A stretch of 64,000 nucleotides of DNA from positions 992,001 to 1,056,000 of the forward strand of contig NZ_CP014691.1 of the NCBI RefSeq assembly GCF_002005465.1. The letters run 5' to 3'. Below, one piece after another: positions 45,132 to 52,161 of the stretch. The notes under the pieces were generated by a model, which saw nothing but the letters and a program-made list of their open reading frames with translations, did no database searches and had not been told where the DNA came from. The position numbers were made by a program, and so were the translations under genes. The stretch is from Neoasaia chiangmaiensis. GTDB lineage: Bacteria > Pseudomonadota > Alphaproteobacteria > Acetobacterales > Acetobacteraceae. Numbering within the stretch: the first letter of the stretch is position 1; each line of letters begins with the position of its first letter.

Positions 45132-45548
45132 TCACGCCGACGGGCGCCAGAGTTCGTCGATCTGCTGTTGTTCCTTGCGTAATTCGGCACGACGAACCTC
45201 GGCGCGGCGTTCGTCATAAACGATCTCGACTGCCCGATGGGCAGCCCGCGCCATGCTCATAGCCGTCTGAGCCAGTGCACGATCGGCAGCAGCCCGTTGT
45301 TCGTTCTGTCGCGCGGCGCGAATAGTGGCCCGCCCCTGCGGCATCCACTGCGCGAAGGCACTGACGACGAAATCGTCACATTCAGGACGGGACGCAAATT
45401 CCCGTTCTTCAAGATAGCGCTGCTCGGCATCCTTCACCGCGTCACTCGCCATCTTCTCCACGGCAACAGCCATCGCCAGATCCCGCTCAGTCTTTTCCAG
45501 TTCCCGTTTGCGCAAGCTCATCAATGTTTCGAGGGGACCAAGATTCAT
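45132..45548 (-). CDS. fliJ: FliJ-like flagellar export protein
   Basis: 138 aa, almost entirely coiled coil: LETLMSLRKRELEKTERDLAMAV, then KDAEQRYLEERE and the C-terminal helix VYDERRAEVRRAELRKEQQQIDELW. FliJ is the central stalk/chaperone of the FliI ATPase ring. The start overlaps the fliI stop by four bases, which supports the assignment more than sequence does, because coiled coils are poorly conserved. Confidence 0.75.
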   Translation of the reverse strand: MNLGPLETLMSLRKRELEKTERDLAMAVAVEKMASDAVKDAEQRYLEEREFASRPECDDFVVSAFAQWMPQGRATIRAARQNEQRAAADRALAQTAMSMARAAHRAVEIVYDERRAEVRRAELRKEQQQIDELWRPSA

Positions 45549-46927
45549 GCGACCTCTCCCAGAATGTTGCGCAGCGCGTTGAAACTGCCCTCAATGGTCG
45601 CCGTCTCATTCCAGTCCTGGGTCAGGAACGCCGTTAACGCCGGCATCAGAACGATCGCCTCGTCGATAGCGGGGTCCGTACCCTGTTTGTAGGCACCAAG
45701 CCGGATCATATCGGCCATCCTTTCATAATTTGCCATGATGGCCCTTGCCCGACGCATCATGCTGTTTTCCGCCGCCGAGTTGCATCCCGGCACGGAGCGT
45801 GAGAGCGATTTCAGAACATCGATTGCCGGATAGCGGCCGGCCTCACCGATCTTGCGATCCAGAACGATATGGCCATCGAGGATGCCACGCACCGCATCGG
45901 CCACCGGCTCATTGTGATCGTCCCCTTCGACCAGAACCGTGAACAACGCCGTGATGAATCCTGCTTTCCCGTCCTGTCCGACGGCGCCGGGTCCAGCTCG
46001 TTCCAGCAACGCCGGGAGCGTTGCGAAGACGGATGGCGGATAACCTCTCGTTGCTGGCGGTTCGCCGGCAGACAGGCCGATCTCACGCAATGCGAGGCAG
46101 AAACGCGTCACGCTATCCATGAGCAGCAACACAGACTTCCCCTGATCGCGAAAATATTCGGCGATGGCCATGGCGGCATAGGCTGCCTCCCGACGCATCA
46201 AGGGCGGCGAATCGGATGTCGCAATAACCACGACGCTGCGCTTGAGGCCCTCCGCCCCAAGGTCGTCTTCAATGAATTCACGGACTTCCCTCCCGCGCTC
46301 GCCGACCAATGCGATTACTGCAACATCGCAATCGGCCTGCCGCGCCAACATGGACAGAAGCGTCGATTTTCCAACGCCCGACCCCGCGAACAAACCAAGC
46401 CGCTGCCCGATCCGACATGTGGTGAACGCATCCAGAGCACGAACGCCAAGATTCATTCTCGGCCCCAGGCGCGCCCGCGTTGTCGCCAATGGCGGGGACG
46501 TAACGGTTGATCGCCACCGCGAATTGAGACGGAGAGGTCCTTTCCCGTCGATCGCGTTGCCAAGCGGATCGATCACCCGCCCGAGCCAGGCATCATCGAT
46601 ATACAAACCGCGCTTCGGCGCACCGGGATCGATACATAGCCGCGCTTCGGAACCAGGCCCCACGCCATCAAGCGCCGCAAATGCCATTAGCGATGCACTG
46701 TTATCCCGAAAACCCACAACCTCTGCGGGTATTCTGGTACCATCCCGCGCGTAGAGCGACACACGATCGCCGATGGAAAGAGAATCGTTCAAGCCATCGA
46801 CGGTCGCGCAAAGACCCAGGATTTCCCGGACCTCCCCGATGACGCTTACGACTTCGGCAAGCGTCACGGCCGCGTTCAACTCGTCAAAAATCTTCTGCAG
46901 ACTGGCGAATAAAGGGTCGTCGCTCAT
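45545..46927 (-). CDS. fliI: flagellum-specific ATP synthase FliI
   Basis: 460 aa. A RecA-like hexameric ATPase that energises flagellar type III export. Walker A GLFAGSGVGKSTLLSMLAR, the catalytic Glu in VGERGREVREF, Walker B VLLLMDSVTRF, the conserved GEPPATRGYPPSVFA and a C-terminal GAYKQGTDPAIDEAI match FliI rather than F1-beta. Only fliI and fliJ are here; the rest of the flagellar genes are elsewhere. The promoter side carries a perfect CtrA site 25 bases before the ATG. Confidence 0.94.
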   Translation of the reverse strand: MSDDPLFASLQKIFDELNAAVTLAEVVSVIGEVREILGLCATVDGLNDSLSIGDRVSLYARDGTRIPAEVVGFRDNSASLMAFAALDGVGPGSEARLCIDPGAPKRGLYIDDAWLGRVIDPLGNAIDGKGPLRLNSRWRSTVTSPPLATTRARLGPRMNLGVRALDAFTTCRIGQRLGLFAGSGVGKSTLLSMLARQADCDVAVIALVGERGREVREFIEDDLGAEGLKRSVVVIATSDSPPLMRREAAYAAMAIAEYFRDQGKSVLLLMDSVTRFCLALREIGLSAGEPPATRGYPPSVFATLPALLERAGPGAVGQDGKAGFITALFTVLVEGDDHNEPVADAVRGILDGHIVLDRKIGEAGRYPAIDVLKSLSRSVPGCNSAAENSMMRRARAIMANYERMADMIRLGAYKQGTDPAIDEAIVLMPALTAFLTQDWNETATIEGSFNALRNILGEVA

Positions 46928-46951: not shown

Positions 46952-46966
46952 TTAATATCCGGTTAA
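46952..46966. promoter_or_regulatory. CtrA binding site TTAA-N7-TTAA
   Basis: Two exact TTAA half-sites with a 7-base spacer match the full CtrA consensus. The site lies 25 bases upstream of the fliI ATG and 102 bases upstream of the ctrA ATG, in the 141-base divergent region, so it could control either gene and give ctrA autoregulation. No other perfect copy was found in the gaps I read. Confidence 0.8.
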
Positions 46967-47068
46967 AAAAAGCGTGCTGAAAATAATTTTCTTCCTGCGC
47001 AACAATTCTCGTTGCGATATGCAACCTTGGGTGGTAACCGTTTATCAACAAACTTCGGAGTTGCCACT

Positions 47069-47797
47069 ATGCGCGCCCTTCTCGTCGACAGCGATCTCAA
47101 CATCGCCATGAGCCTTATTCAGATCATGCGCGGCAGTGGTTTCACCGTGGATCACACGGCGTCAGGACGGGAAGCTCTGGAGATGCTCCGGCACTACGAT
47201 TATGACATTACGGTGCTGGAGCTCATGCTGAACGATATCGAAGGTTACGATGTCATTCGTCAGGCACGACAGGCGCGCATCACGACGCCAATCCTCATTC
47301 TCAGCAGCCTCACCCGTCCCCAGGCGAAGATCAAGGCGTTCGGTGTCGGCGTCGACGATTACATGACTAAACCCTTCGATACCGGCGAACTTATTGCCCG
47401 ACTGCAGGCTGTGCTGCGTCGTTCACGCGGACTGAGCGCCGCACGCGTGGCCATCGGGCCGCTTGAAATCGACCTGAACGCCAAGGAAGCCCTGGTCAAT
47501 GGCGCGCCAGTTCACCTTACCGGCAAGGAATATGCCATTCTTGAACTGCTCGTTCTGAGACGCGGCGCTGTACTGACGAAAGATGCATTTCTCAATCACC
47601 TCTACGGCGGCATCGATGAGCCGGAGATGAAAATCATCGATGTGTTCATCTGCAAGCTACGTCGCAAGCTACAGGTCAAAGGCGCCGGCAACCTTATTAC
47701 CACGGTCTGGGGACGCGGCTACGTTCTCCGGGAGGAACGTACGGTTGAAGCTGAGATGATGCCGGCCGCCCCCATGCTGGCATCCATGTCAGCATGA
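47069..47797 (+). CDS. ctrA: CtrA-family cell-cycle/motility response regulator with Glu at the phospho-acceptor position
   Basis: 242 aa. The C-terminal DNA-binding domain is very close to Caulobacter CtrA: LTGKEYAILELLVLRRGAVLTKDAFLNHLYGG, then KIIDVFICKLRRKL and TVWGRGYVL (each segment typical). The receiver has the CtrA shape, but the acceptor Asp51 is Glu51 (VLELML; GAG codon at 47219-47221), and the second metal-binding Asp is Ser8 (LLVDSD). The Lys of MTKPF remains. A D51E exchange in Caulobacter mimics phosphorylation, so this protein may be constitutively active. The ATG at 47069 has GGAG upstream. The tail after YVLREE is about 20 residues and ends MLASMSA. Confidence 0.92.
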   Translation: MRALLVDSDLNIAMSLIQIMRGSGFTVDHTASGREALEMLRHYDYDITVLELMLNDIEGYDVIRQARQARITTPILILSSLTRPQAKIKAFGVGVDDYMTKPFDTGELIARLQAVLRRSRGLSAARVAIGPLEIDLNAKEALVNGAPVHLTGKEYAILELLVLRRGAVLTKDAFLNHLYGGIDEPEMKIIDVFICKLRRKLQVKGAGNLITTVWGRGYVLREERTVEAEMMPAAPMLASMSA

Positions 47798-52043: not shown

Positions 52044-52161
52044 CGTGGTCTCTATCGTTTCAAGCGCGTATGGCGCGGCACCAGGCCATGCCACTGTCAG
52101 AATATGTTTAACATAAGCATAAACCCGGACGTTCCCACCCTGTCATGCACGTTTTCCGTGA

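Follow-up and report, generated by a model that had tools for sequence, protein, structure and literature searches.

The stretch of DNA analyzed here, referred to as the window, comprises 64,000 nucleotides of the Neoasaia chiangmaiensis genome and carries a pair of divergently transcribed genes, ctrA and fliI. The ctrA gene (47069–47797, + strand) encodes a 242-residue protein with a receiver and a winged-helix DNA-binding domain and was named from its Pfam domains and its homology to CtrA. The fliI gene (45545–46927, − strand), assigned from Pfam, encodes the flagellar export ATPase and is followed by a fliJ-like gene (45132–45548, − strand) that was named by eye. At the domain level, the Pfam results are consistent with both the ctrA and fliI identities. 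Between the two genes lies a candidate CtrA site, TTAATATCCGGTTAA (46952–46966, no strand assigned), that matches the consensus TTAA-N7-TTAA, in which the spacer of 7 is the known CtrA spacing (accessible text of PMC11264516). The assignment is based on the exact consensus, a spacer-specific excess of the motif in the genome, and recurrence of the site before ctrA in relatives whose CtrA carries glutamate at position 51 (E51). As the preliminary description had reported, the match is exact and lies in the fliI–ctrA interval. It is separated from the fliI ATG by 24 bases and from the ctrA ATG (47069) by 102 bases. It is the sole exact match in the window, where 0.02 are expected, and only 2 of 100 shuffles of the window contained one. 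Fourteen exact matches occur genome-wide, on a single contig of 3.41 Mb.

The window CtrA is 57–58% identical over 222 residues to proteins annotated as CtrA in Azospirillum, and the next best paralogue in the genome is at most 38% identical. It possesses the features of a CtrA orthologue, i.e., a receiver joined to an OmpR-type DNA-binding domain, closest similarity to CtrA, and conservation of the DNA-binding domain. Codon 51 is GAG (47219–47221, + strand), specifying glutamate where aspartate (D51) is usual, and the acidic pocket reads D-S-D. This substitution is shared by all 20 of the nearest CtrA proteins (the window protein plus its 19 best matches among 299 sampled family genomes). Eighteen of these 20 proteins have S or N as pocket residue 8, and K101 is likewise kept in 18 of 20. 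Position 51 varies in 21 further sequences with decayed receivers (E 10, D 4, A 3, H 2, R 1, N 1), is almost always aspartate in the 74 other sequences compared (D 71, E 3), and is aspartate in 79 of 80 named alphaproteobacterial loci, as determined by reading. The lone E51 among the named loci is L096, the CtrA of a Geminicoccaceae MAG, which lies outside the E51 clade.

Divergence of these proteins is unevenly distributed, as the DNA-binding domain stays near that of Caulobacter and the receiver drifts. Relative to a Caulobacter CtrA, mean identity in the receiver is 0.51 for D51 proteins, 0.44 for E51 proteins, and 0.38 for decayed ones, while the corresponding means for the DNA-binding domain are 0.66, 0.62, and 0.60; individual E51 proteins range from 0.57 to 0.66 in the latter domain. 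In a quick tree, all 20 E51 sequences and nearly all of the decayed ones fall into one group of 45 (SH-aLRT 94). The tree as a whole requires a minimum of 10 switches between D and not-D, with several long branches whose placement is unsure. Two CtrA matches without a receiver, L159 (genome G061) and L161 (genome G031), were dropped from the tree, the residue counts, and the pairing with ChpT described below. The C-terminal residue was also compared. It is alanine in 73 of 80 named loci, 10 of 14 D51 family members, 7 of 20 E51 proteins, and 6 of 21 decayed ones, counts that omit 60 by-place loci ending at the match. Loss of this alanine as loss of a degron was considered suggestive only; the residue is retained in the window protein.

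The site recurs at a characteristic position before ctrA. With up to one mismatch allowed, it is found at −145 to −90 of ctrA in 15 of the 20 E51 genomes, as compared to a mean of 1.8 and a maximum of 6 in 300 shuffles, although one genus (g85) is repeated six-fold and weighs on this figure; with one genome taken per other genus, the site occurs in 5 of 9 versus 0.4 in shuffles. No such site lies in this interval in the remaining five E51 loci (L108, L111, L115, L116, and L121). Conservation in relatives, a check proposed in the preliminary description, is seen at the level of this recurrence and not of the exact sequence, which is present in the interval in just 2 of the 20 E51 genomes (the window and one other), a number reached by 5 of 300 shuffles. 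Outside of the E51 genomes, frequencies do not differ significantly from shuffles, being 6 of 22 (3.3 shuffled) for decayed sequences and 4 of 71 (2.6 shuffled) for D51 relatives, the latter excluding L139, L140, L142, and L147, which have D51 in a broken pocket. When the region before ctrA was scanned with spacers of 3 to 12 in 43 sequences that are degenerate or without ChpT, spacer 7 gave 21 matches and the others 1–15.

In seven E51 loci (L118–L120 and L122–L125), fliI is absent from the 1.5 kb examined, and all of them retain the site at −112. In two of these genomes (G148 and G008), the locus is otherwise in the gene order of the window, with fliI missing and a fliJ-like frame left, as judged by eye. 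Four of the seven loci (L118, L119, L120, and L124) also have GACTC, an instance of the GANTC methylation motif, at −107 inside the CtrA-like site.

Sites of this kind are concentrated before flagellar genes. In a test area of ~464 kb (the window plus 20 stretches of 20 kb), 5 of 7 flagellar transcription units have a site with no more than one mismatch in the 200 bp before them, as opposed to 11 of 256 others (Fisher p = 8e-6). Three of the seven, the fliI, motB, and DUF1217 units, had been chosen through their exact site, and the proportion among the rest is 2 of 4. The site-independent units, which came from a PF00460 search plus the neighboring fliP, comprise flgE and flgB with a site and flgF and fliP without. 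The enrichment before motility genes that the preliminary description proposed to test is found, subject to the selection of these three units. As a control, the same units were scanned with other spacers: spacer 8 gave 2 of 7 (p 0.025), while spacers 4, 5, 6, 9, and 10 each gave 0 of 7. The product families encoded by the flagellar-unit genes are MotB, FlgE-type, FlgB-type, FliP, and DUF1217, the last of which we presume to be flagellar. Genome-wide, 3 of the 14 exact sites adjoin flagellar genes as we read them, namely those at fliI/ctrA, before motB (39 bases to the start), and before the DUF1217 gene (49 bases). Others precede a ComM-like gene and a GGDEF gene, and no motility gene was recognized among the neighbors of the remaining exact sites. 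One-mismatch sites include TTAACATAAGCATAA in the window (52108–52122), 72 bp upstream of the predicted ftsH start, and an overlapping pair upstream of a DUF4174 gene in L277 (17715–17740).

A candidate proximal promoter of ctrA, TTGCGA-17-TAACCG, lies at 47012–47040 (+ strand). Across the 20 E51 genomes, the best promoter-like spacing upstream of ctrA places the −10 at −34, with a mean of 5.65 of 12 matches (offset median 3.58); a general scan for consensus promoters found none upstream of ctrA. Relative to the proximal start predicted in this way, the CtrA site is centered at about −88, a distance that varies among relatives. A second, CtrA-type ctrA promoter may exist in which the site covers the −35 and AATAAT (46982–46987, + strand) serves as the −10; this element was noted by eye, and the overlap fits in the window only, the spacing not being kept in relatives. 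The spacer of the proximal promoter also contains a second, sharper conserved element, located near −47 of ctrA, which reads CAACCTTGGGTGG in the window (47022–47034) and resembles CACGCATAGGTGGTA in many D51 relatives. Allowing one mismatch, CAACCNWNGGTTG has one other match only in 464 kb. The element was considered as the target of an Xre-type repressor, by analogy to the ctrA repressor of Cereibacter, and set aside, as the accessible part of that paper gave no binding sequence (PMC11999139).

Taken as an operator, the site could serve either of the two genes that flank it. On the basis of sequence, it is probably an operator through which CtrA regulates the expression of ctrA itself at the level of transcription, with fliI perhaps a secondary target. 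The preliminary description had linked it to fliI as well, and this link appears weak. A site devoted chiefly to fliI, and hence to flagellar export, with ctrA as a bystander, would suit its distance of 24 bases from the fliI start and the sites at other flagellar units, but seven relatives without fliI there retain it. In addition, coordinates indicate that CtrA bound over the −35 of a fliI promoter would put the start of the fliI transcript at approximately the start codon. Because of this geometry and retention of the site without fliI, a fliI promoter element was rejected as its main role, which was assigned to ctrA instead; control of fliI as the chief function is unlikely.

How an E51 protein might act at such an operator depends on what remains of the CckA–ChpT–CtrA phosphorelay. 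Loss of phosphorelay members from Rhodospirillales is already published: Brilli et al. 2010 (PMC2877005) reported members missing there, and chpT, cckA, and divL are given for only 27–36% of genomes of the order in the available text of PMC8116508. In the window genome, glutamate replaces the acceptor D51, and a PF10090 search detected no ChpT. At E 1e-3, the same search recovered ChpT from 185 of the 299 family genomes (174 above the cut-off), as well as from the control, Caulobacter vibrioides. Among 115 CtrA sequences, the 67 with an intact phosphorylation site come from genomes with ChpT in 58 cases (E ≤1e-5), a weak match in 3, and none in 6, as opposed to 1, 3, and 44, respectively, for the 48 with a broken site. 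The contrast of 58/67 versus 1/48 is mostly one evolutionary event, since most broken receivers fall in one clade and a lineage-pair comparison yielded too few pairs (5 on starred branches, 3 for the intact site). Contrary to the pattern, G061, whose CtrA match has no receiver, has both ChpT and a CckA-like match. One genome, G132, combines E51 with ChpT. In two D51 relatives, chpT (L169, 8436–9071; L170, 732–1343) heads an operon read as chemotaxis-type and convergent with ctrA; other genes occupy this place in the window.

CckA is less easily scored. Matches below E 1e-100 were obtained in 7 of 15 D51 genomes and in none of the 20 E51 genomes, a level that 8 of the 15 D51 genomes also fail to reach. 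The best CckA-like match in the window genome (4e-81) covers a kinase core and receiver only. The genome encodes a 757-residue hybrid kinase with a CckA-like core (match to 5idm, annotated Cell cycle histidine kinase CckA, E 1e-29). This kinase belongs to a group of which one relative carries several paralogues that match equally well.

At the level of sequence, these results uphold the premise of the preliminary description, namely, a CtrA that would be constitutively active, in that the protein carries E51 and the genome has no detected ChpT. Since the receiver has no phosphate acceptor and ChpT was not found, E51 CtrA would be expected to bind the site without phosphorylation. Its output would then be set mainly by the amount of CtrA, and the level of CtrA could be fed back, through activation or repression, onto the proximal ctrA promoter or a distal one. 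A functional site at which CtrA is still switched, via another kinase or a receiver partner, such that the loop is not amount-only, would be compatible with the 757-residue hybrid kinase, the retention of K101 in most E51 proteins, and the coexistence of E51 and ChpT in G132. Nonetheless, it is quite unlikely given the absence of D51, the altered pocket residue 8 (S or N) of most E51 proteins, the lack of detected ChpT, and the equally good paralogues found in one relative for the group of this kinase.

The motif itself was examined through its spacing. Genome-wide, pairs of TTAA separated by 4 to 10 bases number 5, 2, 5, 14, 5, 4, and 2, respectively (binomial p 0.0003), as tallied from a listing of 37 sites with strands merged; a spacer of 11 occurs 6 times, a value obtained by subtraction. 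With the half-sites held constant, the N7 count tops the other spacers, and the known CtrA spacing therefore stands out. A reversed pattern, AATT-N7-AATT, is found 15 times as compared to 14 for the motif. However, AATT pairs are commoner than TTAA pairs (99 versus 37 for spacers 4–10), and owing to this unequal frequency the reversed pattern was set aside as uninformative and replaced by the spacer controls.

The comparison was extended to 60 genomes, with excess expressed as the N7 count relative to a quarter of the control count (N8–N11). The 20 E51 genomes contain 326 N7 pairs versus 1154 controls, a 1.13-fold excess (p 0.03), and in 16 of them N7 is above the control mean. In the 16 AT-poorer E51 genomes, the counts are 173 and 359 (1.93-fold, p 8e-12), although this cut was chosen post hoc with the counts already known. 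D51 genomes with ChpT show a 2.11-fold excess (14 genomes). G054 was left out of this group because its 8 sites share one contig (C24), within ~31 kb, and look alike as similar exact TTAA-N7-TTAA repeats. Decayed-receiver genomes give 0.86-fold (n = 21), or 1.41-fold in the 10 AT-poorer ones, and four genomes without detected CtrA give 0.82-fold. Enrichment is accordingly not peculiar to E51 genomes, being also present in D51 genomes with ChpT. Because D51 genomes share the excess and it is lower where CtrA is decayed or not found, it is a general mark of CtrA that fades with decayed or undetected CtrA, with AT content as a confounder. That the site before ctrA is a functionless, chance or purely AT-driven match, as the exact sequence kept in only 2 of 20 E51 genomes and the equally frequent reversed pattern might suggest, is quite unlikely in view of the spacer-specific excess, a positional recurrence above that in shuffles of the same AT-rich sequences, and retention of the site after fliI loss.

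The predicted autoregulatory arrangement has a known counterpart. The ctrA promoter region of Caulobacter crescentus, with promoters P1 and P2, likewise contains CtrA sites (available text of PMC11264516). These are a TTAA-N6-TTAA over the −35 of P2 and a single half-site at the −10 of P1, and the CtrA that acts on them is regulated by phosphorylation. The window differs in having one N7 site, centered at about −88 of the proximal start predicted for ctrA, as well as E51 and no ChpT found. It resembles the CckA–ChpT–CtrA system in its CtrA orthologue, the conserved DNA-binding domain, and flagellar units predicted to be controlled by the motif, and departs from it in the missing acceptor D51 and the undetected ChpT. 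The residue change is the same as that of the laboratory D51E mutant, which, as far as the accessible text of PMC2714070 goes, cannot be phosphorylated and still activates downstream genes. In Rhodobacter capsulatus, purified CtrA did not detectably bind the promoter of its own gene, and D51E did so with low affinity (part of PMC6363796). Unlike the laboratory D51E, the change here occurs naturally in all 20 of the nearest genomes examined, and 18 of these also have an altered pocket residue 8. The literature searched, which leaves out most subscription journals, yielded no description of D51E as a natural state of CtrA.

One tentative scenario is that the natural D51E arose across the clade when the phosphorelay was lost, with control moving to the amount of CtrA and the autoregulatory site left as a main remaining input. 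The receiver may then have decayed further (to A, H, R, or N, or to D with a broken pocket) as the DNA-binding domain was kept. We take the E51 clade to be the acetic acid bacteria. The proteins of these relatives form a series, from E51 with an intact pocket (L111 and L115), through E51 with a changed pocket, to the further decayed receivers. CtrA is a standard example of a regulator controlled by phosphorylation, and this lineage seems to have swapped the switch for a fixed mimic of the phosphorylated state that may run on level alone. If true, it would be a natural counterpart of the laboratory D51E experiment and would make it possible to explore what such a regulator needs to stay useful.
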